Shown one piece after another: positions 1,638 through 33,754 of a stretch of 51,289 bases of DNA. Location of the stretch: assembly GCA_028715625.1 (NCBI GenBank), contig JAQURL010000009.1:1-51289 (forward strand), read 5' to 3'. The notes under the pieces were generated by a model, which was not told the DNA's origin, did no database searches, and saw only the letters and a list, made by a program, of their open reading frames with translations. The DNA comes from Candidatus Margulisiibacteriota bacterium (GTDB lineage: Bacteria > Margulisbacteria > Riflemargulisbacteria > GWF2-35-9). Every line of letters begins with the position of its first letter. Within the stretch, counting starts at the first letter, position 1. A program made the position numbers and the translations under genes.

Positions 1638-2831
1638 ATGACAACAAATGATGTAATAATGGGCTCAAACAGAGTATCACAAGCAAGTGGAACATCACAA
1701 GCAGACAGTGCTTCATCCTCTGGCGAAGGCAGCTTGATTAGTAGCCGTTCAGGTAGCGTGGAACTGCCTTCTTCTTATGGCACACCTGCGGTGTCTACAC
1801 TTTCTCTTAATGAAAGCGGTGATGGAGATGTTAGCACTATGGCTTACAGCGAGGAAGGTGGAGGCTTTACAGATTCCAGGAGTGAAAGTGGAGGAGGGAT
1901 AAAAACGCACGAATCTCCTTATGCCACAACGAATTCCTTAAACGAAGAAGGGGGAGGTCTTCGGACACATGAATCGCCGATAACAACTATGGCATATGGT
2001 GAAGAGGGTGGTGGTATCGAAACTCATATGGGCCCGATATTAACTCATGAAAATCCTGTTGAGACCCATAAGGCCCCAGACGGAACTTCATATCAGGATT
2101 ATTCGGCAGAAGTAGAAATTTTGAAACTAATCACTAAAATTAATAATGGTGAGACTATAACCGCGGAAGAAATGTATCTGGCTATAAAGAACGGTATTTC
2201 GGATCTTGACGCTCACGGAGCAAGCCTGGAAAACGTTGATTTTAATACTTTTTTTGGCAGATATTCCGATCATTTATCTGACGGCGCTAAAAAAGTGATG
2301 GAAATTTACAATATTTATGCTGAGAAACACGCATACAGCGGCGGAATCACTGAAAGTGAAGCCAATACGATGTTTGAGGAAATGTCCCAAATTTCTGATC
2401 CTGTTGCTACAACCGCGGGCTTGAATGAAGAAGGCGGAGGGGTAGAAACTCATACCCCGCCATTAACACACGAAGCACCGGATGGGACAACCGTATATCA
2501 GGACGATACAGCTAAAGCGGAGATTTTGAAACTAATCACTAAAATTAATAACGGTGAAACTATAACTGCCGATGAAATGTATCTGGCTATTAAAAACGGG
2601 ATTTCCGATCTGGATGGAAAAGGCGCAAGTACAGAATTTTCAGATTTTAATAAATTTTACTGGGAATACCAGGACCATTTGTCAACAGGCGCTAAAGACG
2701 TCATGAAAATTTATGGCGCTAAAGCCGCGGAACATGAGTTTACCGGTGGAATTCCCATTGGTGAACTCGACACCATGCTTGAAGAAATGGACAAGGTGGA
2801 CGATGCTTATATACTATTAAAAACAGATTGA
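1638..2831 (+). CDS. Repetitive protein; candidate multi-core graspetide-type RiPP precursor
   Basis: 397 residues, no homologue recognised. The ATG at 1638 follows a GGGGGA ribosome-binding site. Residues 1-50 are Ser/Thr/Gln-rich without a signal peptide. Residues 53-147 and 258-283 carry cassettes built from two alternating motifs. The first is TTxxxxEE followed by GGG: TTNSLNEE (97-104), TTMAYGEE (116-123), TTAGLNEE (258-265), with variants STMAYSEE (66-73) and STLSLNES (53-60). The second is THxxP, seven copies (from residues 90, 110, 129, 136, 143, 271, 277). Two similar helical domains (about 157-250 and 293-388), each containing the shared stretch ILKLITKINNGETIT, follow the cassettes. 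TTxxxxEE is the known core of plesiocin-type graspetides, in which an ATP-grasp ligase links Thr hydroxyls to Glu carboxyls. The next gene encodes exactly such a ligase. The helical domains could act as docking domains. Alternative: an ordinary low-complexity protein. Confidence 0.7.
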   Translation: MTTNDVIMGSNRVSQASGTSQADSASSSGEGSLISSRSGSVELPSSYGTPAVSTLSLNESGDGDVSTMAYSEEGGGFTDSRSESGGGIKTHESPYATTNSLNEEGGGLRTHESPITTMAYGEEGGGIETHMGPILTHENPVETHKAPDGTSYQDYSAEVEILKLITKINNGETITAEEMYLAIKNGISDLDAHGASLENVDFNTFFGRYSDHLSDGAKKVMEIYNIYAEKHAYSGGITESEANTMFEEMSQISDPVATTAGLNEEGGGVETHTPPLTHEAPDGTTVYQDDTAKAEILKLITKINNGETITADEMYLAIKNGISDLDGKGASTEFSDFNKFYWEYQDHLSTGAKDVMKIYGAKAAEHEFTGGIPIGELDTMLEEMDKVDDAYILLKTD

Positions 2832-3086
2832 ACAGCCACAATAGCTGTTAACGACTCAACAAGTGCTGCAGGTGAGTACAAGGATGTTATAACTGAAATT
2901 CTTATTAATCAGGCTAAAAGAGACCTGGTCACCAATCTCAGAACTGCGGTTTTTTCGACAAGTACAAGCACAGACTCTACAGCTAATGATGAAACAAAAA
3001 AGCAGGATGTGGTAAAAAAGGCTGATGTGATAGTACCAAAAAATACGGTTAAAACTGATACGGTGGATTACAAGACTAACAATTAG
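2832..3086 (+). other. In-frame 84-codon extension beyond the TGA stop at 2829-2831
   Basis: Directly after the TGA ending the gene at 1638, the same frame stays open for 84 codons to a TAG at 3084-3086. The encoded segment is Thr/Ser/Lys/Asp-rich (for example ILINQAKRDLVTNLRTAVF, STSTSTDSTANDETKKQD) and resembles the composition of the upstream protein. It has no ATG in frame of its own. A hairpin AACAGC/GCTGTT with a 7-nt loop occupies 2831-2849, right at the stop. This may be a nonsense mutation, a sequencing error or readthrough. TGA is a normal stop elsewhere in the window, so genome-wide recoding is unlikely. Confidence 0.5.
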
Positions 3087-3149
3087 ATACTGACAGATTT
3101 TTTAGATACGGATTTTGGTCAAATGATCTGAAATAAACAGATATTATGT

Positions 3150-3155
3150 TATACT
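3150..3155 (+). promoter_or_regulatory. Candidate -10 box just upstream of the maturase start
   Basis: TATACT ends 11 bp before the ATG at 3167, where no Shine-Dalgarno sequence is visible. If used, transcription would begin at or next to the start codon and give a leaderless mRNA. No good -35 box is present, so this is tentative. Confidence 0.25.
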
Positions 3156-3166
3156 GATTTACGGTC

Positions 3167-5110
3167 ATGACCAATCTCCGTATCATCTGGGATATCACTT
3201 CTCGCTGTAATTTCAGCTGTAAACATTGCTACTTTAAAGCTTCGCCGAATGACGAACAAAAAGAGTTCAGCCTTGAACAATCAAAAATTTTTTTACAACA
3301 AGTCGCAGATGCCGGGATAAAACATGTTTCACTTACCGGTGGCGAACCTCTGTTACGTAAAGATATTCTGGAAATTCTAGGTTTTGGAAAATCTTTGGGA
3401 CTATCTTTTTCTTTAGCGACTAATGGGGTGCTTTGCACAGAAGAAATCCTTCAGGAACTAAAAAGAATCGGCATACGAAGCATCCAAATCAGTCTGGACG
3501 GGCCGGATAAAACCACTAATTTGCAAATCAGGGGTAATTCGGAAATTGACTATTACCTGGCAATTAAAGCTATGAGAATGGCTCGTGATCTGGGATATAC
3601 AGTGACAATGGGGGTTCTTCAACACAAACTCACATTGGACAGGGTCCCGGAATTTCTGGCTTTGGCCGAAGCGCTGGGTGTGCATTATCTACGTTACTCG
3701 GCAATAATTCCGGTTTATTATAAGGAATTAAAAAAAGATTATAATGCTATTTTACCTGACATTGAGCAGCAAAAACGTTTTTACGAATATGTTCGAAATG
3801 TTTCTCAAAAAAAAGTAAGGATTTTGCTGGACTGCCCCTGCGGCCCAGTATGGGAAGGGCAGAAACATTATTGTACAGCCGGCAAACATTCGGTTTATGT
3901 TAATGCGAAAGGTGAAGTTTTTCCCTGCTCAACCCTGGCTTTCGATGAGTTTTCGTTCGGTAATGTCTTAAACGGCTCGCTGGGAGAAATTTTAAACAAA
4001 GGTGTTGAGTTCAGGCAGACAGTTACGAAAAAAGACAAAAAAGGCAAGTGCGGCAAGTGCGCTAATGATTCCTGCAGCGGTGGTTGCCCGGGGCTTATCT
4101 ATGCTTTTTCCAAAAGACTGTATTTATCCAATCCTTTTTGTTCTTTTTATGTAAAACAATCAGAAAACAAAGAGGTGCAAGCCGTAAATAATAATGATAT
4201 AAAAAAATCCGTAAGAAAATCAATAATAGTTTTAAGCCATAAAGACGAACAGCATGCCCGGCACATTAAAAAATTATTGGAAGAAAAAGGGGAAGAATCA
4301 TACTTTCTTGACTGGAGACAGTTTCCTGAAAATATTCAGCTATCATATTCACCTACTCAGAGTTTTCGCAGCGGACTTATTATCGATAATTCTGAAATAG
4401 ACGTTAAAAGTGTATTCTGGCGCTGGTATCACAGCCCTGTCGTTCATACAAGCGGGCCCGATTATCAGATTGACTTAAAGAATGCTGAAGCTGCTATAAA
4501 AGGGTTTATGGGACAACTGGACTGTCTTTGGGTTAATCCGCCGGACAGCTACTATCTGCATTGGTGCAAACCTTTGCAGCTGACAAAGTTCAGAGAAGCA
4601 GGTCTACCATTGCCAAAAACTCTTATTACCAATAATTTAGGAGATATCAGGGAATTTTTGGGAACCTATAAAACTTCAATTATTCATAAGCCGGTACAGG
4701 GTGGATATCACACTCAACTATACAGCACACAGGAAGAGGAAGAATTTGCCCAAAATTTAAAAACGTTACCGGTCACTATTCAGGAATATATTGAAGGATC
4801 AGATATCCGGGTTTACATAATCGGCCAAAAACTTTATGCCGTGAAAATAGTGACTGATGCTGTGGACTTTCGTAACGACAAACAGCATAAACTGGAACGT
4901 ATAGATATACCAGAAGTCTTGGCTCAGCAGTGCTGGACAGCTGCACAGGTTTCAGGATATGTGTTTACGGCAATTGATATCAAACAGGACAAAAATGGAA
5001 ATTATTTTTTTCTGGAAGCCAATCCCAGTCCCATGTTCATGCATGTGGAAAATGTTACAGATTATCCTATAAGCAAGGATTTAACGGATCTTCTTTGTGG
5101 CGGCAAATAG
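3167..5110 (+). CDS. Fused radical SAM/SPASM - ATP-grasp peptide maturase
   Basis: 647 residues joining two RiPP enzyme types. Residues 1-340: radical SAM with CxxxCxxC (C14, C18, C21) and GGEP (58-61), then a SPASM-like region with C223, C225, C236, C254, C295, C298, C303 and C307, suited to auxiliary Fe-S clusters. Residues about 350-645: an ATP-grasp ligase of the graspetide (MvdC/MvdD-like) type, with the pre-ATP-grasp opening IIVLSHKDEQHA, VFWRWYH (about 416), WVNPPDS (about 455), LITNN (about 485), a DIR triplet (546-548) like the DxR signature I recall from these ligases, and EANP (E617, N619) for Mg-ATP. Expected chemistry: ATP-dependent ester or amide macrocycles plus a radical modification, in the cytoplasm. 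It follows the TTxxxxEE protein; the gap is 81 bp from the end of that frame's extension. Separate ATP-grasp and SPASM partners are known as grasp-with-spasm systems; a single-chain fusion is unusual. No exporter or protease is adjacent. Confidence 0.9.
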   Translation: MTNLRIIWDITSRCNFSCKHCYFKASPNDEQKEFSLEQSKIFLQQVADAGIKHVSLTGGEPLLRKDILEILGFGKSLGLSFSLATNGVLCTEEILQELKRIGIRSIQISLDGPDKTTNLQIRGNSEIDYYLAIKAMRMARDLGYTVTMGVLQHKLTLDRVPEFLALAEALGVHYLRYSAIIPVYYKELKKDYNAILPDIEQQKRFYEYVRNVSQKKVRILLDCPCGPVWEGQKHYCTAGKHSVYVNAKGEVFPCSTLAFDEFSFGNVLNGSLGEILNKGVEFRQTVTKKDKKGKCGKCANDSCSGGCPGLIYAFSKRLYLSNPFCSFYVKQSENKEVQAVNNNDIKKSVRKSIIVLSHKDEQHARHIKKLLEEKGEESYFLDWRQFPENIQLSYSPTQSFRSGLIIDNSEIDVKSVFWRWYHSPVVHTSGPDYQIDLKNAEAAIKGFMGQLDCLWVNPPDSYYLHWCKPLQLTKFREAGLPLPKTLITNNLGDIREFLGTYKTSIIHKPVQGGYHTQLYSTQEEEEFAQNLKTLPVTIQEYIEGSDIRVYIIGQKLYAVKIVTDAVDFRNDKQHKLERIDIPEVLAQQCWTAAQVSGYVFTAIDIKQDKNGNYFFLEANPSPMFMHVENVTDYPISKDLTDLLCGGK

Positions 5111-19298: not shown

Positions 19299-20810
19299 CT
19301 AAGCTGGTATGTCACCTCTGAGCACAGCCATGTAATATTTTATCTGATCCAGATAATTACCATGGTGAACAACCTGTTCCAATGGTAATTTGTCGGGTGT
19401 TATCATACTGTTTACCAGATTCAGCACTACATCTTCATCTCCAGCTTGCCTGAAGTTTTGCCCGGTTTCCGCCATATACATATTTATTCCCAGACTTAAA
19501 AAAGATTCCATATTTTTTAGCAGACTGCGGAAATTTTTTGTGTAGTACTGCTGAGCCTCTTTCATTTTTTTATCCTGCACAAGCAGCTGGAGCACAATCA
19601 GATCATCATTCTGGTTCATGCTGCTGATTGTATTGATTGGCAGTAGACCCGGTATGTAAACCCGATATACCGGTACCTTCAATTTGGGATGGGATTTGTC
19701 TATGACAATTGTGTTCAAGTTTTGTTCATTAAGCAGGTCCATAAGACTATATATTTCCTCCCGAAAGTCATCAGAAGACAAATTATTCAGCGCAGAAACC
19801 GGGATTACTTTACACTCTTTAGCGCACTTCTCCACATCCATATCCAGGCAAAATTGCCAGCGTCCTTTGGTAAGTTTAAATTTGCTGGGAACTATGTCCT
19901 GTTTCAACACAATTCCTTCCCGCCCCTGGGTATATTCGGTGATAGCCCTGATTATAGCTTTATTGGGGTCTGTATGACAGCCATAGCCGAAACCTTTACG
20001 CAAAATTTCTTTGTCTGTCCTATGATCAATTCCGCTGCATAAAATTGTCGGTACATTAATGTATTTGGAAGCATTAAAGAGGTAAATATCAATACCGATC
20101 CTTTTATAGTAATTGTATAAATCATGTATGGCCGGATGATTGATAGAATTTATATCAATAAGCTCTATAGCTGAATATTCTTTATTCATAACCACATAGC
20201 CGGTATTGTGCCTCTCAATAACTTCACAAATACCCTGAACAATAGCTTCTTCTTTGGTATTGCCAGTGCATAAACCATTTGATGTCTGATAATTATTGTT
20301 CCAGTTCAAGGGATAATATTCCGCGCATTTATGTGTCAATGAGTATCCTGGTACCCAGTCCATATTGATATTTCTTAAATATTCGAGCAGATATTCCTTT
20401 TTATCACTGTAGGGTATAAAAAAACAATTATTAATTCTGCTTAGATCAAATTCTTTATTCAGATCAGAGAAAGACAGATGCTTGTACCCCGGTACATTTT
20501 TATAATCATAGTTCAACCAGGAATATCGTTCGCTGTATTCCATAATGGCGCTGGCTTTGGCTTGATCGATAGTAAACCCTTTGCCATGAGAATTCACAGT
20601 GCCGTCGCCGAAGTCATATACAAAAATCGGGTGATCAGCACGAATTTCCAGTAAATGAGGAGAACGGTCGGTAATATTTCGCATGATGTTCCTGTATGCT
20701 TTTTTGAAAGTAACTTTGGGATGGACAAATTTATCCTGATCAAAGATATAACTTTTTTTAACCGACTCAAGCTCAAATCCGGTTTGTTCCCGAAGAATAA
20801 AGTTAACCAT
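19299..20810 (-). CDS. YcaO-domain protein
   Basis: 503 residues. The YcaO fold uses ATP to activate amide backbones, making azolines, thioamides or amidines in peptides, or supporting methylthiolation of ribosomal protein S12 in E. coli. Diagnostic stretches: GKGFTIDQAKASAIMEYSER, SNGLCTGNTKEEAIVQGICEVIERH (ATP/Mg-binding glutamates) and FGYGCHTDPNKAIIRAITEY. The C-terminal part is helical and ends GDIPA rather than in the proline-rich tail of azoline cyclodehydratases. No TfuA, E1-like partner, dehydrogenase or obvious precursor is adjacent, so its substrate is open. The ATG at 20810 lacks a Shine-Dalgarno sequence; a TATAAT reads on this strand at 20824-20819. It diverges from the giant-protein gene across 167 bp. 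Confidence 0.88.
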   Translation of the reverse strand: MVNFILREQTGFELESVKKSYIFDQDKFVHPKVTFKKAYRNIMRNITDRSPHLLEIRADHPIFVYDFGDGTVNSHGKGFTIDQAKASAIMEYSERYSWLNYDYKNVPGYKHLSFSDLNKEFDLSRINNCFFIPYSDKKEYLLEYLRNINMDWVPGYSLTHKCAEYYPLNWNNNYQTSNGLCTGNTKEEAIVQGICEVIERHNTGYVVMNKEYSAIELIDINSINHPAIHDLYNYYKRIGIDIYLFNASKYINVPTILCSGIDHRTDKEILRKGFGYGCHTDPNKAIIRAITEYTQGREGIVLKQDIVPSKFKLTKGRWQFCLDMDVEKCAKECKVIPVSALNNLSSDDFREEIYSLMDLLNEQNLNTIVIDKSHPKLKVPVYRVYIPGLLPINTISSMNQNDDLIVLQLLVQDKKMKEAQQYYTKNFRSLLKNMESFLSLGINMYMAETGQNFRQAGDEDVVLNLVNSMITPDKLPLEQVVHHGNYLDQIKYYMAVLRGDIPA

Positions 20811-20977: not shown

Positions 20978-23900
20978 ATGACTGAAATTATACAGCCACA
21001 AATTTCTGAGGTTAAAAACCTAGAAGGTATTGGTATTGACGGAAATGCCGGTGCCGGGCAATTTATACCTTCATATATTCTGAATATAGAGGAGACACAG
21101 AAAGGCAATACTGCCCAGGATGTTGTAGCTCTCTCAGGCAAGAGCGCCACAGCTGATAATTCCAACCAGCAGCAAATCGGTAATGATTTTAGAAGAACAT
21201 TAGAAAAGGTCAAAGACAATCAGGGGTATGTACTGAACGATAAAACCTTTGCCGCGCTGGAAACGGGCTTCACGGCAATAGACGAAAAATTTAACGCTTA
21301 TCTGGAAACTACCAGGGGGCGTGGCAGGCAAGTAAATGTGCTTGTGCAGGATTTCAAGCAGTACAGCCTGGAAGTTTTTGAAAAATATGATTTGGCCAAA
21401 GGTACTGATAAAATACTGGCGCGAATAGATGAACTAATTAAAACAGATGCTGGAAATGGCGAGAAAACTCTGCTCAAAGATATACAGAAAATTACGGCAG
21501 ATTTTCAGTCTGATTTAAAAGAAGCCGATTTTATAAATCGGGAATTGCCTTTTGCGCCAGAGACAAAAATCGCAGAACCGGTTATAGAGGAAAGCATTTT
21601 TACCGGTGAAAAAATTTTGTTTTCTCAAGCGGAAAAAATGAACGCTCAGTTAACTGTTTGCCAGGAACGGTTATATATAAATCTTGAAAAAAAGGAGCAG
21701 AAAATCGCTGGACACGATTTTGATAAAACTATACCTGAACAAGACGCAAGGGTTGAGCAGGTAAAAGATTATGTTATAAATGAGCGAACCCTGAATGTGC
21801 AGGTCAACGGAGGTATAAACGAAGCTTATGCGTATGATGGCCAGCAGGACATTAAAGTAACAGATTTCATTGATCCTGACAATGCCGAAGTCCAGAAGTT
21901 GTTACAAAAATTAAAAGATGAAAAAGTAATAACCGAAGATATGACAGATGAACAGATAATATCGGCCCTTTATAACTATTTAACGAATAATTTCAATTAT
22001 ATAACGGATAAAACAGGAGAAGGTTGGCAAAAAGCAGATAAAACAATAGCCGAAGGTGGGGGAGATTGTGAGGACCTGTCTATTCTTCTGGCCAACCTTT
22101 GTTACGCCGCTGGTGTGAGCCAGAGTAAATTGCAGGTTTATGTGGATGCTGGAACAGAAAAAGAGCAGGGACATGTTGTAGTTGGTTTTAAAAGAATTGA
22201 TGATACCATTGCGGACCTGGACCTTACCGAAGCTGTGCAAACAAAAAAGGATATTAATTCCGTTTATGACTGTAAGCTTCTTGACGCCACACTTTTTGAT
22301 TTCAGTTTTAACGAGTATTCAATTGATTCTTATGATGGTTCAACCGGTAAAGATTATGGTGTTTTTGAGGATCCGACAAACGCCAGCAGTTTATATACTT
22401 CGGGGATAATTTTGCGTTTCGATGCCACTGAAGAAGATCAGATTGTCAGAGGGTCCATGGGCGCTGATGCTTTTAGCGGTTGTATTAATCAGATGATCGC
22501 TTATTATCAAGGTTTAATAAGCGATTATAACAACAACTATCAGAGTGCTTTAAATGATTTTAATTCAAAAGCCGGTGAAGGGGGTGGTTATTACGACAGT
22601 AATGGTAACTATATAACTTCTCCTCCTGAATATGATCAGGGATATTTGGATTCCTTACAAAGTACGATTAATCAATTGTCGGGTATGTCTTCATCGGATA
22701 TTTTTAATCAGCTGGTTGCTTTGGGATATTTAGATGCTTCTGGCAAAATTACAGAAAAATTTACTTATCATGTTACCTCATTGGGATTAAATCCACCTTG
22801 TTTAGATCAGCCGGTAATTAACGCTTTACGCAGAGGAGTATACATAAAGTTGGCAACAGTTGAAGGTGTGTATGGATCTCCGAGACAAATGGTGTACACA
22901 GGAAATAATTACGCCATGAGTGTATTTTACAAAATAGCAAATGCCATGAGCAAGGCCTGGTGGCTGATACAATGCGCTGTGTTTACCATTCTTAATCAGG
23001 GAATAACACCTGAACAAATGGTCGATATCCTGAACAGTTTGCGTCAGGCCATGATGGATGGAAGAGTAGACTGGGACAAAGGTATGACAGTCTATAATGC
23101 TTTAATCAATGGCGCAAATGCCGGCATATTGCTGGACGCGTTGCGAAACCCGAGTGAGTTCAATATGTATGTAACGGGTGGGAAAAAGGATTATGGTACG
23201 GAATGCACAAAAATCGGCCTGGGAAACCGCAGTGATATTATAGGAGATAGCGGTCTGAGTAGCTGGGCAAGCGGTGTAAGCTATACATCCTGGATGGAAT
23301 ATTATACAGAAACAACAATGGTCAGTCAGTATGCTCCGCAGGTTGGTTCCCCATGGTTTGGAGGAGTTTGTTTTAAGACACTTAATTTTAAAGCGATTGA
23401 CGACTGCATGCATAAACTGGAAGTGGCGATTGACTGGGGTTGTGGCTTGGCCATGATCGGAGAAACCCTTACAGATATACGCAGTTCGGTGATCCAGATT
23501 ATTTTCGGGCTGGAAGATTTTAAAAAATTGGAAGTCTTTAAAGCCGGCAGATTTATAGAATTTTTATCAGGGGTACTCAGCAATGTAGATAAAGTTTCCA
23601 ACGATTTGATGGAAAGAGTGCAGGCCTACAATAACAGAGTTCTGGAAATCAAGATTGAGGCAGCAAAAGCTCTGGCCAGGCAGATGTCGGCGGGTATGAA
23701 GAAAAAAGCCGCAGCCTATGAACAAATGCTTGTTGCGGAATTTACTGTTGTTCTTCTTAACCAGATGAAAGCAGTTCAGGAAAAAATGATTGCAGGCATA
23801 AAATCTGTTATAGAAATACACATTGCCCGGCTGGAAAATTCTAAAGATCCTTTTAACAAAAAGCGCGCTGAATATTTGCGACAAGCGTTGGAACATAATT

Positions 23901-26900
23901 ATTTTTCCAGTGATGGCGGTAATACCGGCAAAATGAATTTTGACAAAGAATTTGCTTTGACTATGCAAATGCACATGATGAACCTTAAATATACACAGCA
24001 GGGTTCAGAACTCACCAAAGACGCGGCTGAAAACGTAAAAGATATCATCATAAAAATTTTATTCGGTATTGATACCAGAAGCGATGTGCGCAGCTCGTTA
24101 TTAACTTTACTGGATGCTATGACGCAGATCGAGACTATGTGGATACACCGTTATTCCTCTATGCTGGATACCTTACGTCAGGTAAATAATGCTATAAAAG
24201 ACGCGGAAAAAGCTTATCAGGACGCCAAGCGTGTTTATGACGCTATGGTGCGGGCAGCGAACAGATCAAGTTTTTGGGGTAGTTTTTTAAGTTTTGTAGC
24301 CATCGCCGCTGTCTTCGTAGTATTTGCAGCGCCTTATATCGCAACCATTTACGTGGTGCTTGCCTCAGTGGTCTCTGCCTTAGCAACCTTAGCAAGCGCC
24401 TACATTCAGATGAAGGGCCAGTTGGACGTACTAAAGGCTATTAAAGAAGGACTGTCTCAGGATTTTTCATTTAAGATTACTTCTCTTTCCAGTCAGTTTT
24501 TAAAAGCATTACAGGATATAGATATGAAATATGATCAAGGCCAGTTAACAGGATCCAACAGCTATATACAGACCATGGCTAATATAGCGAAAAATTTTAG
24601 ACGTCTGATAGCGGCCATGTGGCAATTTGTAGCGATGATGTCCGGCACAAATTTATGGAAGGACAAAGGTGGAGGATTTAAAACAGTTGACGCGGCAAAA
24701 CTGGCTGAAATGCGGGTAAAGATCATGGCTATTCAGTACCAGATGACTGCGCTTATTATGATCGGGGAAGCAATTCAGGACGCGCATGATATTGTAATTC
24801 AAGTCCTTTATCAGATCAAAACAAAAGGTCCGTTGATGAAAGCCTTACAAGGGGCTATGAACGGTATTTTTCAGATTATAAACGACGCGGCCAATTATCA
24901 GTGCCAACAGTTGTACGCGCAAGTGCAGGAATATAACCGTGCTTTGCAGCAGCAGTTGGACCTGGCCCGGGTAAACCAGCAGATAGCTTCGGTCAAGGCG
25001 CAATTCGGTATTGCCGTTATGGTTTGTGTTATTTCGATAGCCGCGGCTTTTACTGCTGTTGTTTCGCCGCTTTTAGGAGCAGCGCTGTCGCTAGCTGTCA
25101 ACGTAATAGGGCAATACATGCAAATGCAGGTTGCCAAGGATGATTACAAGTTTGCCGAGCAGATGTATGAGCGTTATAAAGATTTCAGCGCTGAAACCGC
25201 GAAAGTACTTTTAGAATACGCTGCCAAGGATTATGAAATAGCGCATCGGGAAGACGAATCACCCACTCAGCGCGCCAGGATTAATGTGCATAACGCTTTA
25301 CTCCATTTAATGGAAAAGCTTTATCAGAGCATCAATAGCATTACTTTTGCGGACGCGACAATAAATATTGGCAATGAATATATGGGCATTAACCCTGTTT
25401 TTCTTTCAGAAATATCCAAAGAAATGGCCAAAATTTTAAATGCCATGCTGGCAGTGTTCGCGGCTTTTAAAGCAGCGGAGGAAATCAGGGCCGTAGTATT
25501 GGAAATATGTATGGGAGTGCAGGTAGGGTCCGGCTCATATTACATGATGCAGGCCATACGTATTTTAAGTTCTTTCGCAGCCGGCAGCCTTACAACCAGG
25601 GTTGAGCAACTAAACCTGGATATTCAGGCTTATAATCGCATGATAGACGCCAAACATCAAATGGAAGACGCTCAAAAGCAGTATGAGCTGGCCTGCAAAT
25701 ACGCCGCTATCAATATTGCCATATCTATTATTTCTTTCGCGGCAAGTGTCGGTGCTAGTGCCACAGCACCTGGAGTAGATCAAGCCGCAGGTGCTTTGAA
25801 TAAAGCTTTCCAAACCGTAGTAGCTTTAATGAAAATATTAAGCACGCTTATGAATATGATGCAGCAGCAGGAGCAGATAGACATTCTTAGGGCCAAGCTG
25901 GCCAAGGAAACCACCGGGGACCTGAAAAAGTATCAGGAAATGCTTATGAGCTTTTTTGATTCGTTATTCGGCGATACTAACGATCCGTTCCTGCAATTAT
26001 TAAAAGCAGCGTTGAAATCCATAAATATAGGTATGGTGGAATCCACTGCCGCCGGCCAGGTGGGATTTAATTCGGGAATAATGACTGAAATGCAGTATCT
26101 GATAGAAAACGCCTTTGAGACCCGTAAAGCTATTCTGGAGATACACTCGGCCAGAGCGGAGATCAGAGACCTTGTGCGCCAGATGACCATGGGCATCCCG
26201 CCGTCTGCCGAGCAATTCTCCATTTCGGAAATGGCCCTGAATTTCTGGGAACAGGCTATAAACCAGATGCTGGGCTATGCCAATCAAACAGTGCATGATT
26301 ATGTCGATCGTTATAATAAACGCGTACAAGCGGAGGAACGTCTGGCTGTAGAAATAGCCAGAGCCTCCGTTTCAACAATGTTTTCCATGATCAGTATCGC
26401 GGCTCAAATGGTCAAAATAGCTGCTATATGGACTAATGACAGCAACAAAATTAATCAAATGAGTGGATTGGATATGTTAAGTAAACTCATGGACCCAGGT
26501 GGGCCTATGTCTTTATTTTATGACATTATGAAACAACTGTTGACTTACATGGCAGTAAAAGCAGCCAAAGAAAAGTTTGCCAGGGACGCAGAGGCCAGGG
26601 CCAAAGCCGAACATCCCGGAGGTCAGCCATCGGTCCATGCCCATCCCGGGTTAAGTATGAAAGCAATGACTATGCGTTTGGGCATGGTCCTGGGAGATAT
26701 GCAGATGCAAAATGCCGCGGAATCCATTCTCCAGCATAGAAAAACAGAACTGGAAATAATGCTGGACAAGCTTATGGATAGAATTTTGAAATCTGTAACC
26801 CGTGCTGATTATCAAGGTATGGTTGATTTTTTCAAGAGCGCGATAAATTCCGAAGCTGTTAAAAGTATAACGAAGGGGGAAGCTGACTTAAAAAATCCGA

Positions 26901-29900
26901 AGAATCCTAATCAATCTGGAACTTCTGGTCAAACGGAAAATGAACCAGTATCACCGCCGCCACAGGCACCATCACCACTTGCTGACGCGACTGGAAAAAC
27001 GTCTCAGTCTCCCGTGATAAACCCTGATGGCAAGCAAGCTCCCCAGGCATCATCATCGCCAGTTGACGCAACAGGAAAAACGCCGCAATCTCCTGCAATA
27101 AATCCTGATAGTAAGCAGCCGCCACCAACAACGCCCCCGCCAGCTGACACAACAGGAAAAACGTCACAGTCTCCTGCAATAAATCCTGATAGTAAGCAGC
27201 CGCCAGTTACACCGTCGTCACCTACAACAAATCCGGATGGAAAAGCATCAGCAACAGCCCGCTTGAGCTTATGGGATATTTTAAAAAGTTTATTTTCAAA
27301 ACCGTTTACCAGCAATGATAAAGCCTGGGCTGTTGAGGCACGAAAATATCTTGATAAAAATCCAAATAATGGATCAATGACTGTCGAAAAATGCCCATAT
27401 CTTAACGCCAACCAGATATCACCCGAATATCATAAAACAAGGCTTGATGATTTTGTAGCAACCTACGCAATAGCTGCGGAGATTCCTCAAACTATTACAT
27501 CCAGTATAAAATCTCTTACAGGAGAAATAGACAGGCTTACTCATCAGCTGGATAGCGCTATCAAGCAGAATATGCCTCATGCCAGCCACCCTAAATTGCA
27601 ACCTCCGCGCCTCAGCGATACTATGTCCGATGTACGTGTCGGCGATCTCGGGCTGGAGGATGCCGCTGAAAGAATAGTAAAGCATTTTGAATCCATGGTG
27701 GAGAGGATTATTAATGATCCCAAATTGCAGGAACTTATAGGTGATATGCTTAAGCCGAAACCAACAGTATCTCTGCCAAAAGGTGCAGCGGAAGAACTTG
27801 ATAAGGTGCGACAGAACTCTACATTTAATAAACAGTTGAATCAGGTTATGGAAAAAATGATTAATAGTAATGATCAACAGGTTATTTCTCAATGCAAAAG
27901 TGATATGCTGGAGATTGCGAAAAAAACTATTAAAGGTGGAGAATATCCCACACTTGCCAAAATGAACGAAACTGAGGCAGCGCAGGCCTTGCTGGCAACT
28001 ACAGATATATCCAAATTGCCTTCTTCTGAAAAACTTCAATTTTTATTTCGAGACGGGGCTCAACAGGTTAATGATATTAATGTATTGGACAAGGCTGCAA
28101 TGAGCCCGGATGCAGCTAAAAAGGTTTTAGATATAATTCTGAAGAATAATAATATATTTAATTATAAAGAAGATTCAACCCAAAACATCAGTAAAGTTTT
28201 TGATCAGGTTAAAAATATTAATGAAAATAGCAAAATAGATCAGGATTGCGTGATCATGTATGCCATTTTAGGTGTGATGAAAGCAGCGGGTATAAATGCC
28301 AGGTTGAACCTGACCGCAGACGATACAAAAGCTCATGCCTCCATAGTATTTCAGGATCCGAATGATAGTCAGCTCAAAAAATTGGATTTTAACAAAGATG
28401 GAATGAAGTTGAGTTCGATATCGGCTGAAGAATATAATAATACTTCAACCGATACCATCAGAGTTATTGGTGTCAGCGGTCGGGTAATTAAAGAAAATCA
28501 AATATTGAACCCAACGAATAAATTAATTCAAGATGCTTTGAAGTCTTCCTCGGCTACTTTGGACACAGATGATAAAACCAAAGGTTTTCGTGTGGATGGA
28601 AAGACAGAGCAAAAAATCAGTGCTACCGCGGCGTCAATAAATGTGCCTAGTATTCTTACTCCTTCGGCAGTTCCAGCGGAAAAGGCTTTGTCACCGCAGG
28701 CAACAGCGCAGACCGGTATAAGCGCATTAACCGTTACCGATAGACTGGACAATATTGAGACCAAAATGACCAGGCTCATGGAAAAGTTGATGCAGCAAAT
28801 GAGTTCCAGGCGCGACAACTCGACTTCCAGAATTGATGAAGACCAGCAGCAGATCAAACAGGAAGATATGCTTAAGGATTTCAGAGAAAAAGTCGCTGCT
28901 ACCTTGATAGCGTCTCTTAGCCAGGCTGACAAAATTATCTCTCAAAATCCGGTCGCAGCAGAGCATGAAGTTTCAGCCAGCCCGGACACGCAAATAATGA
29001 GGCAGTCTCAGGATGATAAGCTACAGAAGGCTGCTATCGAAGATCAGGTTAATCAAATATCTTATCAGTTGCAGGCAGTTTTAAACCAGGCAGTGAAAGA
29101 GACCGCAATGGATTTTAATGTAAGACCGTCATCCAGCAATATAACTCAGGATATCAAAGATTCGTTGAGAGATATGTTAAATATTGTGCAAAAAGACAAA
29201 CAGGAAATTGAAGAAATAGAAAAAAATAAAGACGAACAAATGCAGCAAATGATGCCGGTTACAGCTTCGCAAACCGTTACTCAAGCTACATCTCAGGTTG
29301 CTCAGAAGACTGGAGTTGAGGTGCCTAAAGCCGCTGTTACAGGCATAAGTGATGAACAATTCAAGGAACTGAAGGTGGGAGAAGTTACTAAACAGCTGGA
29401 AGTTATAAAAGGTAATATAGAGAATATTTACAGCCCGATAATCCAGATGAACGCACAGCAGATGGACCAGGCAGTAAAAATGGTACTGAATAATTACGAG
29501 AATATAGCCAAGAGCGGGGTTCTGGTAAGTCCGGAACTGCCGAAATTGATAACAGAGTTGAAACAGAAAGAAACAATCAAGCTGGAAGATATTAAGAAGC
29601 TGAATGAAGCTTTGGAACGGTCTGTGGACAAGAGTTCTCTGGGTAGAGAGCAGAAGATAAAGCTGACCGAGGGGATAGTTGATATAAACAAGAGCATAGA
29701 TGGTATAGAGCTTACAAAGAAGGGCGGGAAAGTAGAGACGATAATCCGCAACAAGGTGGATACGGTTGAAGAAAAAGTTGAGAAGTTATTGGAGTTGGAG
29801 AACCCCGAAGAAGTTATTAAATATATGAAGGCAAACCCGGAAATAATGAAAGCGAACAAGGACCTGCTGGTGAACTATTTAAAAAAGGAAAAAAAATATA

Positions 29901-32900
29901 AAGATGTGAGCAAAGCTGCACAGGAAATAACAGGACTGATTGATGATATCAAGCTAACGCCTAATGAAAAGAAACAGATGGTAATAAATATTATTGATGA
30001 CAGACAGCAATTTAAGGATAAAAAAGAAGCTGTGCAGATAATTGTAAAAGATATCAGCATTTTAGCTGAAGCGTTAAGCAAGGAGTTAATCAAGGAAGAT
30101 GAGTTTAAGGACGCTGTAAACAATCAGATTATAGTGCTGGACCGTCAGGACCGGGAGACCAAAAGGGAAGCGATAGAGCAGATAGTAAGTATTCGGGATA
30201 CCAGAGAAGGCAGCGCAAGAAATTGCTACCGGGAAGCTATTAAGGAAATAAGCCAAAGCAGTTTGGAAAATGATGAGTTGGTCAAAAGCGTAAGCGGGGC
30301 AATAGGTGCGGCGGGGATGGTATCCGCATCCGGTATGAGTCCGGTCACTGCAACTGCGCAGAAATCAGGAACAGAGGTACCTAAAGCTGCTATTACAGGT
30401 ATTAGCGAAGAACAGTTCAAGGAACTGAAGGTGGGAGAAGTTACTAAACAGCTGGAAGTTATAAAAGGTAATATAGAGAATATTTACAGCCCGATAATCC
30501 AGATGAACGCACAGCAGATGGACCAGGCAGTAAAAATGGTACTGAATAATTACGAGAATATAGCCAAGAGCGGGGTTCTGGTAAGTCCGGAACTGCCGAA
30601 ATTGATAACAGAGTTGAAACAGAAAGAAACAATCAAGCTGGAAGATATTAAGAAGCTGAATGAAGCTTTGGAACGGTCTGTGGACAAGAGTTCTCTGGGT
30701 AGAGAGCAGAAGATAAAGCTGACCGAGGGGATAGTTGATATAAACAAGAGCATAGATGGTATAGAGCTTACAAAGAAGGGCGGGAAAGTAGAGACGATAA
30801 TCCGCAACAAGGTGGATACGGTTGAAGAAAAAGTTGAGAAGTTATTGGAGTTGGAGAACCCCGAAGAAGTTATTAAATATATGAAGGCAAACCCGGAGGT
30901 TACAAACGCGAATAAAGGATTGGTAGAAAAATATCTTATGAAAGAAACCATAAATAAGTACCAGGGGAAAGTGGTCCCTGATATTCTTGATGTTTTGACA
31001 CAACTGAAGATCAGTAATGATGAGAAACAGAAAATCCTGCAGGAAATAATTTCAAGCAAATTAGGTGGTCAGGACAGGGAACGTCAACAACTAATTGCGA
31101 CGTTGTCTCTTGTTGCGGAAGGCATGGGACGAAAAATACTGGGTAGCGAACCGTTTATTAAGGATCTGGTTATAAATATAAAAGAAAAATTGAAACTGCT
31201 AGAGGATAAAGAAAAAAATAATTTATATCAGGAAGTAGCAAACCTTAGAAACAACGCGGACACAAAGGTTAAGACCAGCTATAACCGATTGATAAATGAG
31301 TTGGATATTATACAGCCGTTGTCCGCCTCTGCAACGCAACAAAATTCACAAAACACAATAGCTTATTCCAATATTAAAATAGAAAATATCGGGCAGGCTA
31401 AACCTGTTTTGCCAACTGCTATACAAGATAATGATGCCAGTTATTCAGGATTAAAAGAGGTAATTGATTTTTACCAGAGAAATTCTGGGCTTATAGAAGA
31501 TCATTTGCCCCATATTAAACAGTTTCTGCAGCAAGTTTTTGATAATGAAAAGAATGTTGGTTTTGTACAACTTATGAGTCGGTTTATTAGTGAAATGAAA
31601 ATATCGGCAATAAATAAAGAAAAGATCGTAAATGAATTGCTGGAAAATACTCCGGAAAGAATTGACAGCCAGCAGGATTTTTCTGTGGCCCTGAAACAGG
31701 CACTACTTTGCGATCAGTTACAGTCACAAAAATGGTCACAGATTGAGCCGAAGAAACTTGAACTGGCCAAAAAGTTTTCCGGACTTGTAACCGGTCTGGA
31801 CGAGGAAAACGCTTTGACTATTATGAAACAGTTGCCCGGAGAGATGCAGCAGAGAGTGTTGGGGAACATCGTTAAATTATATGAAAAAAGTCAAAAAGAG
31901 GGTTCTGGCAAGGTAAAAGGCAATCTTTATGAACAGTTGCTGGATTACTTTAAAAATAACGGTCTTTTGCATTCGGCAATAGGCTCGATGCAGGCACAAT
32001 CTGTTGCCCCAAAACCAGCCATATTTGATATAAAAGGTCCTCAAACAGGCAGAGGTGTACCGGGAGGTAGTATAACAGGTATTGAAGAAGAAGATTTGGC
32101 GGGAGTTCGTGCAGCCGGGTTAATAAAAAAACTTGAGTCCATTAAAAGCGATATCAAAAGCAGGGCAAATACTGTGAGTAAAACAGAACAAAGGAATGTA
32201 AATTATAAGGATTTGATAGCAAAATATCAAAGCCTGAGGGATAGCCGGCTCATTGATAACGAGCAGTTCGCCCAGGAATTGGATTCCCTGCTTGATAAAG
32301 AAACTGTGAGTAAAAATGATATTTCCAGATTGAATAGTATTCTAATGGAAGTCTGCAAACAGGATAAAAAGATACCATCAGCTATGGCCCAAAAGATTTT
32401 TTCTGTACTCAATACCACTAATCAATATCTGGGCAAGAGCTTGAACTTGCCTGAGGCGATAGTCAGAGAAGATTATACAAAAGAGGGTCTATCTCAGGTA
32501 AAGGATTTTTATCAGAGAAATTCCGAACTGGCAGATCGTAGCAGTGCGATAATCTTTGATTATCTGGAAAAAGTATTTCAATGCAATGATAATCCGGAAA
32601 TAGCGGCAGAAATAGCACAATTCATGAAGAATCTCTTAATCATTAAAGACAAAAAACAACAGTTTTCCGGAATAATACTGAGTAATAAAGCTGCAGATAT
32701 ATCAACTGTTTCAGAGTCAAATCAGAGCATAAAGCAGATTGTTTATATTCAACACTCAGCTCAGGAAAACGTTATTGATTTCGCTGGCAATTTCCAGAAA
32801 CTGTCACATGGTTTATTAAAGTTTATACTGACACAGTCATTGAGTGCTGCGGTTTCAACCGTAAATCAAATGCCGGCAGAAACCAAGAAGCATATTTTAC

Positions 32901-33754
32901 TCAATCTCTGCAAAGCAAGCTTTGAAGCAGGGAATAAAATGACTAATAGTCATGTGAAGGATAACCGCTATGAAAAATTGTTAAATTATCTGGAAATTAA
33001 CGCAGACAAAGAAACAAAAATGATTATTAAAGATTTACGCCAGCATCCGCAGACCTATTCGGAACCGGCCATGCAAACCATTCATGACCTGACAGAGTTG
33101 TGTGTTCATATCAGAAGTTCGGTGAAGCAGGACCCGGGACAAATTCCAGCTTTCCAAAGTGATTTTTTGTTCAAGATCAAGGAATTATCAAATTATTATG
33201 ATATTTCTTTACCTGCTGCAAAAACTAATTCGGCAAATCTTGTGAATTCCATACAAATGGCCAGAGCTGTTATGAAACAGATAGAGCTCAGGAGTTATTC
33301 CGACCGGACTAGCCGTATGAACTTTGAGCAGTTGTTCATGGAAATGGACAAGATTGAATTGTTTTATGAAATCATTCCTGAGTCGCGTTATTTTATCGAA
33401 CGTTTGGTAGCGGCTGCAGCTGATAACAGATATACTCTTGTTCCCAGTGATGAGATAAAAGAATTGATAAAGCAGTATCAGGGGTATGAACCTATAGCTC
33501 AGGCTTATTTAGAAAAAGTACTGGCAGGTACAGAAGACAAAAAATTTCAGGACAGGTTGCAAATACTGCGTAATCTATTGCGCGAGTCAGCGGCACAGCA
33601 TAATAATGCGCAAATAGTTTCACTAAGCGCTATGCTTAGTGTGCCTGTGCAGGAACTGATCTCAAGTGTAGTAAATCAGCTCTGGAATAAAAAACAAAAA
33701 GAGGATAAAAAAAATATTAATATTATCGGTGTTATCCCGAAAGTGAAAGGTTAA
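20978..33754 (+). CDS. Giant 4258-residue protein with two transglutaminase-like domains
   Basis: A single uninterrupted frame of 12.8 kb; no overall homologue recognised. Regions: 1-230 polar, coiled-coil-prone, no signal peptide; about 250-440 transglutaminase-like cysteine domain with C364 (GGGDCEDLSILLANLCYAAGV), H399 (GHVVVGF) and D413/D415; about 830-1950 five degenerate 185-250-residue repeats, each opening with a motif like IRSSVIQIIFG, most followed by a coiled coil and a hydrophobic stretch (about 1098-1142, 1341-1381, 1574-1598, 1796-1818); about 1988-2094 Pro/Ser/Thr linker; about 2400-2480 a second transglutaminase-like core (C2424, H2453, D2470); from about 2560 helical modules, two starting VPKAA(V/I)TGIS and a diverged third near 3690. 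The hydrophobic/coil alternation recalls secreted pore-forming or translocator proteins, but that is inference. It heads an operon with two further unknown genes. No strong ribosome-binding site. Confidence 0.85.
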   Translation: MTEIIQPQISEVKNLEGIGIDGNAGAGQFIPSYILNIEETQKGNTAQDVVALSGKSATADNSNQQQIGNDFRRTLEKVKDNQGYVLNDKTFAALETGFTAIDEKFNAYLETTRGRGRQVNVLVQDFKQYSLEVFEKYDLAKGTDKILARIDELIKTDAGNGEKTLLKDIQKITADFQSDLKEADFINRELPFAPETKIAEPVIEESIFTGEKILFSQAEKMNAQLTVCQERLYINLEKKEQKIAGHDFDKTIPEQDARVEQVKDYVINERTLNVQVNGGINEAYAYDGQQDIKVTDFIDPDNAEVQKLLQKLKDEKVITEDMTDEQIISALYNYLTNNFNYITDKTGEGWQKADKTIAEGGGDCEDLSILLANLCYAAGVSQSKLQVYVDAGTEKEQGHVVVGFKRIDDTIADLDLTEAVQTKKDINSVYDCKLLDATLFDFSFNEYSIDSYDGSTGKDYGVFEDPTNASSLYTSGIILRFDATEEDQIVRGSMGADAFSGCINQMIAYYQGLISDYNNNYQSALNDFNSKAGEGGGYYDSNGNYITSPPEYDQGYLDSLQSTINQLSGMSSSDIFNQLVALGYLDASGKITEKFTYHVTSLGLNPPCLDQPVINALRRGVYIKLATVEGVYGSPRQMVYTGNNYAMSVFYKIANAMSKAWWLIQCAVFTILNQGITPEQMVDILNSLRQAMMDGRVDWDKGMTVYNALINGANAGILLDALRNPSEFNMYVTGGKKDYGTECTKIGLGNRSDIIGDSGLSSWASGVSYTSWMEYYTETTMVSQYAPQVGSPWFGGVCFKTLNFKAIDDCMHKLEVAIDWGCGLAMIGETLTDIRSSVIQIIFGLEDFKKLEVFKAGRFIEFLSGVLSNVDKVSNDLMERVQAYNNRVLEIKIEAAKALARQMSAGMKKKAAAYEQMLVAEFTVVLLNQMKAVQEKMIAGIKSVIEIHIARLENSKDPFNKKRAEYLRQALEHNYFSSDGGNTGKMNFDKEFALTMQMHMMNLKYTQQGSELTKDAAENVKDIIIKILFGIDTRSDVRSSLLTLLDAMTQIETMWIHRYSSMLDTLRQVNNAIKDAEKAYQDAKRVYDAMVRAANRSSFWGSFLSFVAIAAVFVVFAAPYIATIYVVLASVVSALATLASAYIQMKGQLDVLKAIKEGLSQDFSFKITSLSSQFLKALQDIDMKYDQGQLTGSNSYIQTMANIAKNFRRLIAAMWQFVAMMSGTNLWKDKGGGFKTVDAAKLAEMRVKIMAIQYQMTALIMIGEAIQDAHDIVIQVLYQIKTKGPLMKALQGAMNGIFQIINDAANYQCQQLYAQVQEYNRALQQQLDLARVNQQIASVKAQFGIAVMVCVISIAAAFTAVVSPLLGAALSLAVNVIGQYMQMQVAKDDYKFAEQMYERYKDFSAETAKVLLEYAAKDYEIAHREDESPTQRARINVHNALLHLMEKLYQSINSITFADATINIGNEYMGINPVFLSEISKEMAKILNAMLAVFAAFKAAEEIRAVVLEICMGVQVGSGSYYMMQAIRILSSFAAGSLTTRVEQLNLDIQAYNRMIDAKHQMEDAQKQYELACKYAAINIAISIISFAASVGASATAPGVDQAAGALNKAFQTVVALMKILSTLMNMMQQQEQIDILRAKLAKETTGDLKKYQEMLMSFFDSLFGDTNDPFLQLLKAALKSINIGMVESTAAGQVGFNSGIMTEMQYLIENAFETRKAILEIHSARAEIRDLVRQMTMGIPPSAEQFSISEMALNFWEQAINQMLGYANQTVHDYVDRYNKRVQAEERLAVEIARASVSTMFSMISIAAQMVKIAAIWTNDSNKINQMSGLDMLSKLMDPGGPMSLFYDIMKQLLTYMAVKAAKEKFARDAEARAKAEHPGGQPSVHAHPGLSMKAMTMRLGMVLGDMQMQNAAESILQHRKTELEIMLDKLMDRILKSVTRADYQGMVDFFKSAINSEAVKSITKGEADLKNPKNPNQSGTSGQTENEPVSPPPQAPSPLADATGKTSQSPVINPDGKQAPQASSSPVDATGKTPQSPAINPDSKQPPPTTPPPADTTGKTSQSPAINPDSKQPPVTPSSPTTNPDGKASATARLSLWDILKSLFSKPFTSNDKAWAVEARKYLDKNPNNGSMTVEKCPYLNANQISPEYHKTRLDDFVATYAIAAEIPQTITSSIKSLTGEIDRLTHQLDSAIKQNMPHASHPKLQPPRLSDTMSDVRVGDLGLEDAAERIVKHFESMVERIINDPKLQELIGDMLKPKPTVSLPKGAAEELDKVRQNSTFNKQLNQVMEKMINSNDQQVISQCKSDMLEIAKKTIKGGEYPTLAKMNETEAAQALLATTDISKLPSSEKLQFLFRDGAQQVNDINVLDKAAMSPDAAKKVLDIILKNNNIFNYKEDSTQNISKVFDQVKNINENSKIDQDCVIMYAILGVMKAAGINARLNLTADDTKAHASIVFQDPNDSQLKKLDFNKDGMKLSSISAEEYNNTSTDTIRVIGVSGRVIKENQILNPTNKLIQDALKSSSATLDTDDKTKGFRVDGKTEQKISATAASINVPSILTPSAVPAEKALSPQATAQTGISALTVTDRLDNIETKMTRLMEKLMQQMSSRRDNSTSRIDEDQQQIKQEDMLKDFREKVAATLIASLSQADKIISQNPVAAEHEVSASPDTQIMRQSQDDKLQKAAIEDQVNQISYQLQAVLNQAVKETAMDFNVRPSSSNITQDIKDSLRDMLNIVQKDKQEIEEIEKNKDEQMQQMMPVTASQTVTQATSQVAQKTGVEVPKAAVTGISDEQFKELKVGEVTKQLEVIKGNIENIYSPIIQMNAQQMDQAVKMVLNNYENIAKSGVLVSPELPKLITELKQKETIKLEDIKKLNEALERSVDKSSLGREQKIKLTEGIVDINKSIDGIELTKKGGKVETIIRNKVDTVEEKVEKLLELENPEEVIKYMKANPEIMKANKDLLVNYLKKEKKYKDVSKAAQEITGLIDDIKLTPNEKKQMVINIIDDRQQFKDKKEAVQIIVKDISILAEALSKELIKEDEFKDAVNNQIIVLDRQDRETKREAIEQIVSIRDTREGSARNCYREAIKEISQSSLENDELVKSVSGAIGAAGMVSASGMSPVTATAQKSGTEVPKAAITGISEEQFKELKVGEVTKQLEVIKGNIENIYSPIIQMNAQQMDQAVKMVLNNYENIAKSGVLVSPELPKLITELKQKETIKLEDIKKLNEALERSVDKSSLGREQKIKLTEGIVDINKSIDGIELTKKGGKVETIIRNKVDTVEEKVEKLLELENPEEVIKYMKANPEVTNANKGLVEKYLMKETINKYQGKVVPDILDVLTQLKISNDEKQKILQEIISSKLGGQDRERQQLIATLSLVAEGMGRKILGSEPFIKDLVINIKEKLKLLEDKEKNNLYQEVANLRNNADTKVKTSYNRLINELDIIQPLSASATQQNSQNTIAYSNIKIENIGQAKPVLPTAIQDNDASYSGLKEVIDFYQRNSGLIEDHLPHIKQFLQQVFDNEKNVGFVQLMSRFISEMKISAINKEKIVNELLENTPERIDSQQDFSVALKQALLCDQLQSQKWSQIEPKKLELAKKFSGLVTGLDEENALTIMKQLPGEMQQRVLGNIVKLYEKSQKEGSGKVKGNLYEQLLDYFKNNGLLHSAIGSMQAQSVAPKPAIFDIKGPQTGRGVPGGSITGIEEEDLAGVRAAGLIKKLESIKSDIKSRANTVSKTEQRNVNYKDLIAKYQSLRDSRLIDNEQFAQELDSLLDKETVSKNDISRLNSILMEVCKQDKKIPSAMAQKIFSVLNTTNQYLGKSLNLPEAIVREDYTKEGLSQVKDFYQRNSELADRSSAIIFDYLEKVFQCNDNPEIAAEIAQFMKNLLIIKDKKQQFSGIILSNKAADISTVSESNQSIKQIVYIQHSAQENVIDFAGNFQKLSHGLLKFILTQSLSAAVSTVNQMPAETKKHILLNLCKASFEAGNKMTNSHVKDNRYEKLLNYLEINADKETKMIIKDLRQHPQTYSEPAMQTIHDLTELCVHIRSSVKQDPGQIPAFQSDFLFKIKELSNYYDISLPAAKTNSANLVNSIQMARAVMKQIELRSYSDRTSRMNFEQLFMEMDKIELFYEIIPESRYFIERLVAAAADNRYTLVPSDEIKELIKQYQGYEPIAQAYLEKVLAGTEDKKFQDRLQILRNLLRESAAQHNNAQIVSLSAMLSVPVQELISSVVNQLWNKKQKEDKKNINIIGVIPKVKG
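26984..27226 (+). repeat. Three 81-bp tandem repeats coding a Pro/Ser/Thr linker
   Basis: Units start at 26984, 27065 and 27146, each encoding about 27 residues of the form D(A/T)TGKT(S/P)QSPxINPDxKQ plus a proline-rich tail; a partial fourth (TNPDGKA) follows. This joins the membrane/coil part of the giant protein to its C-terminal half. Copy-number variation between strains is expected. Confidence 0.85.
29360..29841 (+). repeat. 482-bp identical direct repeat, copy 1
   Basis: Within the giant gene, this stretch (residues about 2795-2955) matches 30416-30897 base for base as far as I can read, offset exactly 1056 bp (352 codons). Flanking sequence on both sides is similar but diverged, so the identical core reflects recent duplication or gene conversion within an older repeat. 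Confidence 0.9.
30416..30897 (+). repeat. 482-bp identical direct repeat, copy 2
   Basis: Second copy, residues about 3147-3307 of the giant protein. After base 30897 the two modules separate (copy 1 continues EIMKANKDLLVNYL, copy 2 EVTNANKGLVEKYL), still recognisably related. Confidence 0.9.

Follow-up and report, generated by a model that had tools for sequence, protein, structure and literature searches.

The beginning of this contig raises the question whether two consecutive genes, one for a protein with repeated TTxxxxEE motifs and one for an enzyme joining a radical SAM/SPASM part to an ATP-grasp part, constitute a new RiPP system, as was proposed in a first-pass annotation of the window, i.e., of the whole stretch of 51,289 nucleotides that was analyzed. 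As the ligase half of the enzyme is of the PsnB type and the same core occurs beside its relatives, the gene pair is very probably a graspetide cassette. It presents itself as a variant of the graspetide class and not as a separate class of RiPPs.

The upstream gene encodes the putative precursor, a protein without any cysteine; a G-rich stretch, TTGGGGGATAG, stands 5' of its open reading frame. Three exact and three degenerate TTxxxxEE motifs are present, arranged in 11-residue TTxxxxEEGGG units:

1638..2831, forward strand: putative multi-core graspetide precursor of 397 amino acids (open reading frame call; cores counted)
1794..1826, forward strand: degenerate core 1, STLSLNESGDG, residue 53 (STLSLNES is near-exact; motif count)
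1833..1865, forward strand: near-exact core 2, STMAYSEEGGG, residue 66 (motif count)
1866..1898, forward strand: degenerate core 3, FTDSRSESGGG, residue 77 (motif count)
1926..1958, forward strand: exact core 4, TTNSLNEEGGG, residue 97 (motif count)
1983..2015, forward strand: exact core 5, TTMAYGEEGGG, residue 116 (matches the family consensus TTxAxGEEGG)
2409..2441, forward strand: exact core 6, TTAGLNEEGGG, residue 258, flanked by both helical domains (motif count)

In composition-preserving shuffles of the precursor TTxxxxEE occurs with a mean of 0.037 per shuffle, and three or more motifs were reached in none of 20,000 shuffles compared to the three observed. The three exact and two near-exact motifs reported in the first-pass annotation were all located (residues 97, 116, 258, 53 and 66). 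The sixth unit, FTDSRSESGGG, had been missed, as had the seven THxxP motifs and the coding-like codons following the stop codon that are described below.

The downstream gene encodes the fused maturase, which shows the following features:

3167..5110, forward strand: fused maturase of 647 amino acids, radical SAM, SPASM and ATP-grasp graspetide synthetase (Pfam, NCBIfam, frame check)
3206..3229, forward strand: CNFSCKHC, the CxxxCxxC motif for the radical SAM [4Fe-4S] cluster (invariant with relatives)
3872..4150, forward strand: SPASM domain with seven cysteines, residues 236-325 (Pfam SPASM, 4.4e-10; cysteines)
4217..5107, forward strand: PsnB-like ATP-grasp ligase half, residues 351-647 (structure matches, alignment, model, fold search)

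The frame is continuous over 650 codons without an internal stop, and both enzyme parts are thus on one polypeptide, as had been stated before. Searches against Pfam assigned Radical_SAM to residues 10-166 (7.7e-26), SPASM to residues 236-298 and a RimK-type ATP-grasp domain to residues 478-641 (2.8e-8), next to an MvdD pre-ATP-grasp domain that stays below its cut-off (9e-5). For the ATP-grasp half, NCBIfam returned TIGR04187, ‘ATP-grasp ribosomal peptide maturase’, over residues 353-643 with 1.9e-37, which is below the family cut-off.

Among solved structures, the ligase half matches PsnB best by sequence (1.6e-35; 33% identity over 303 amino acids), followed by MdnC (2.2e-16). When the predicted structure was used for a fold search, PsnB again came first (6.3e-24), followed by MdnC, AMdnB and RimK. 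The conserved ligase residues K468, K508, R548, D604, E617 and N619 are retained; the positions at which the general ATP-grasp fold leads one to expect binding of ATP and magnesium are conserved with PsnB and relatives. In the AlphaFold model of the fusion only the ligase half is confident and the orientation of the domains is not readable, and the radical SAM relatives supplied by viral contigs were too few for an improvement of this model. In a tree of ligases the branch of the window sequence is long and lies close to the TTxAxGEEGG clade and apart from PsnB, at an open fork where long branches meet. Sequence and predicted fold both identify the ATP-grasp half as a graspetide synthetase of the plesiocin type; this sustains its earlier description as graspetide-like, and it does not cluster with non-peptide ligases. 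Plesiocin itself is a graspetide and a protease inhibitor, made by a stand-alone ligase without a radical SAM domain from a short precursor with an LFIEDL leader. The window shares with this system (PsnA2/PsnB, group 2) the tandem TTxxxxEE cores and PsnB as the closest solved ligase, but no leader of the LFIEDL type was seen on reading its precursor.

In the radical SAM half the CxxxCxxC motif (C14/C18/C21), the GGEP motif and all seven SPASM cysteines (C236, C254, C295, C298, C303, C307 and C325) are intact, in agreement with the first-pass description of the cysteines. Its family within the radical SAM enzymes is less defined. The best NCBIfam matches, all below cut-off, are AhbD (heme b synthase), TIGR04053, NirJ2 and PqqE, and among these matches it fits no defined peptide-maturase subfamily; PqqE is also the best match among solved structures (2.6e-22). 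A common fold family connects this half with SPASM peptide maturases such as PqqE and SkfB. Such maturases act on ribosomal peptides and usually have an RRE or a partner; here the half is fused to a peptide ligase, no RRE was seen, the matches are below the cut-offs in the NCBIfam families listed, and the putative substrate is without cysteine. As the precursor has no cysteine, thioether chemistry within it is excluded. The same genome encodes another radical SAM/SPASM protein of 523 amino acids (locus L002, 1003-2571, forward strand), with an N-terminal extension that looks RRE-like by eye.

To place the cassette among its relatives, 84,980 species genomes were scanned with two short patterns and the best 80 of 202 relatives of the ligase were examined (L040-L119). 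These nearest relatives belong to Gastranaerophilales, Vampirovibrio, Cyanobacteria, Planctomycetes and some Pseudomonadota, and the closest genomic ligases are 28-40% identical to the window ligase half, many of them near 36. At 48 of these 80 loci an open reading frame with at least two TTxxxxEE motifs was found, and the 191 cores from the 48 loci give the consensus TTxA[LVI]GEEGG, to which TTMAYGEEGGG of the window fits. Within the same phylum a stand-alone homologue lies directly downstream of a 211-residue precursor with six TTxAIGEEGG units (L005), and at a further locus (L033) the precursor beside the homologue is short and contains LFIEEL together with two TTxxxxEE motifs. The motif is therefore conserved as the core of precursors adjoining relatives of the ligase. 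Two of the outcomes that the first-pass annotation had named as refuting its proposal, a missing conservation of the motif and a ligase half grouping with non-peptide ligases, were thus not observed. Many TTxAxGEEGG precursors from Cyanobacteria, Planctomycetes and Pseudomonadota (L043-L119) begin with an HPF[DNE]L leader, which is unlike that of plesiocin.

The cyanobacterial, melainabacterial and planctomycete TTxAxGEEGG loci resemble the window not only in the core. Some of their precursors are long and multi-core, reaching 266-446 codons (stop-to-stop) and up to nine cores in Vampirovibrio, Melainabacteria, Gastranaerophilales and Planctomycetes, and those of L051 and L053 have a non-core C-terminal region. 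Long repeat precursors are also described for graspetide groups 34 and 35 (PMC13097080). The first-pass annotation inferred an unusually long multi-core substrate with folded domains between the cores. The domains are found, as two helical copies, but in view of these relatives it is not supported that a substrate with many cores and additional domains is unusual by itself. It was furthermore shown that the fuscimiditide synthetase ThfB cyclises substrates to which whole proteins are attached and also works with a leader at the C-terminus (PMC12291112, PMC13003496), which makes protein-like graspetide substrates plausible, although the ThfB cases are engineered and, unlike the window maturase, have no radical SAM part.

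Beyond the cores, the precursor and the codons downstream of it show these features:

1905..2078, forward strand: five THxxP motifs, residues 90, 110, 129, 136 and 143 (candidate radical SAM target)
2448..2480, forward strand: two more THxxP motifs, residues 271 and 277 (motif count)
2079..2399, forward strand: helical domain copy 1 (five helices predicted, pLDDT 84)
2475..2804, forward strand: helical domain copy 2 (65% identity to copy 1)
2829..3086, forward strand: in-frame TGA (2829-2831), then 84 open coding-like codons and TAG (codon score)

The seven THxxP motifs, most of which directly follow cores (shuffle mean 0.04), are present in none of 49 related precursors and are the most conspicuous feature of the precursor without a counterpart in relatives. 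They may thus be the best candidate for the target of the radical SAM half. The helical domain of approximately 105 amino acids gave no match to solved folds in the PDB at E≤0.001. A copy of it, 41% identical, occurs in a 536-residue protein encoded by another genome from this bacterial family (L120, 251-1861, reverse strand), which also carries an EF-hand, four ETMTDP repeats and RTX-like repeats. The codons after the TGA score 0.226 bits/codon compared to a 95th percentile of -0.157 in wrong frames, and the probability for this frame to be open by shuffle is 0.0006; they are possibly a continuation of the precursor, and the TGA itself may be read through or may reflect a recent nonsense change or an error of the assembly.

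The fusion is what sets this locus apart. Among the best 80 of the 202 relatives no ligase is fused, and no recognisable radical SAM open reading frame lies within 6 kb of the ligase. A fused orthologue was likewise not found in 74 genomes of the phylum, in 383 genomes across the domain or in two further phyla, where only open frames too short for both halves were returned, and none was present in plasmids or viral contigs. Moreover, no description of a radical SAM/SPASM-ATP-grasp graspetide fusion was found in the open-access literature searched. The fusion is a unique feature among the genomes searched, and the long multi-core precursor is not. The closest known combination is the grasp-with-spasm system of Bacteroidota (group 14, TIGR04193), in which an ATP-grasp ligase and a radical SAM/SPASM enzyme occur together as in the window, but as two separate proteins and with different precursors that often contain cysteine (PMC8939145; PMC13097080). 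The window maturase is a single polypeptide, and TIGR04192/04193 are not among the best 25 NCBIfam families listed for it.

With regard to the locus, the cassette is flanked by FtsK, whose counterparts from four genomes within the family are 66-69% identical; this shows that the contig belongs to its genome. As the cassette adjoins ftsK where relatives carry other genes, it was probably acquired. Directly upstream lies an acetolactate decarboxylase (565-1314; Pfam). Elsewhere in the window a stand-alone YcaO protein is encoded (19299-20810, reverse strand; 2.9e-59 in Pfam; among NCBIfam families a McrA thioamidation protein matches best, below cut-off), as well as an open reading frame of 4258 amino acids (20978-33754), in which Pfam finds a transglutaminase core only and in the region of which an 81-bp tandem repeat lies near 27 kb.

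Taken together, we consider it probable that the two genes form a graspetide cassette in which both halves of the fused enzyme modify the same precursor. In every TTxxxxEE unit, the ATP-grasp half would activate the core glutamates with ATP and link them to the two threonines by two side-chain esters. Three to six hairpin loops of the protein, lying on the helical domains and between them, would be stapled in this way. The tethered radical SAM/SPASM half would introduce a second, carbon-centred modification into the same precursor, perhaps at the core-adjoining THxxP repeats, and the product would probably act as a multivalent protease inhibitor like plesiocin. The fuller reading, i.e., a bifunctional maturase placing ester staples and a radical modification on one multi-domain substrate, with THxxP as a new target and a hybrid class of graspetides as the result, is tentative and stays somewhat short of an even chance. 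Several observations count against the preferred explanation. No LFIEDL- or HPFDL-like leader was seen on reading the precursor, and neither an RRE nor a leader was found by reading the genes of the window; the maturase shows no N-terminal RRE, as its frame begins at the radical SAM core without room for it. TTNSLNEEGGG and TTAGLNEEGGG (cores 4 and 6) deviate from the family core at two loop positions, with S or G for A and with N where relatives have G. No protease or exporter is present beside the gene pair, and the lack of a fused orthologue in the genomes searched and the missing subfamily assignment of the radical SAM half point in the same direction.

It is rather unlikely that the locus is a graspetide cassette only, in which the ATP-grasp half staples while the radical SAM half acts elsewhere or has lost its role on the peptide and the fusion is incidental. 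The similarity of this half to heme-pathway and PQQ enzymes, which is as high as that to peptide maturases, the lack of radical SAM frames at the nearest graspetide loci and the lack of fused orthologues in the genome sets searched would agree with such an accidental joining. However, its catalytic and SPASM cysteines are all retained, an enzyme fused to a substrate-specific ligase normally shares its substrate, and separate SPASM partners are known from graspetide group 14 (PMC13097080). Within the explanation of a shared precursor, the radical SAM half might alternatively edit the core instead of THxxP, for example by a C-C or C-O cross-link, an epimerisation or a hydroxylation in the xxxx loop. 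This version would suit the loop deviations of the cores and a precursor in which, without cysteine, other residues are left as targets, but it appears unlikely, since TTMAYGEEGGG is the same in relatives that have no radical SAM enzyme and THxxP is the feature that those relatives are missing.

The remaining alternatives concern the integrity of the locus. Truncation of the precursor by the in-frame TGA, leaving a non-functional cassette, would explain the open coding-like codons behind the stop as well as the degeneration of three of the six cores; nevertheless this is improbable, as the TGA lies 3' of all exact cores and of both helical domains and the maturase has kept its motifs and a reading frame without a stop. 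That two separate genes were joined by the assembly is very improbable. The fusion occurs in one genome only, from an assembly of 127 contigs with an estimated contamination of approximately 2%, but the two halves are connected in frame by a plausible linker and are coding by score in one frame, and the neighboring gene has its matches within the same family.

Only few graspetides have a second modification. For the authors of a 2026 survey of more than 20,000 predicted graspetides, acetylation and a methyl ester were the known ones; they mention aminomalonate formation and add a hydroxylation (PMC13097080). A natural fusion identifies the partner chemistry without inference from neighboring genes. 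It would allow both steps to be tested with one enzyme and one substrate. Moreover, a substrate that would alternate stapled loops with folded domains is of interest for protein engineering.
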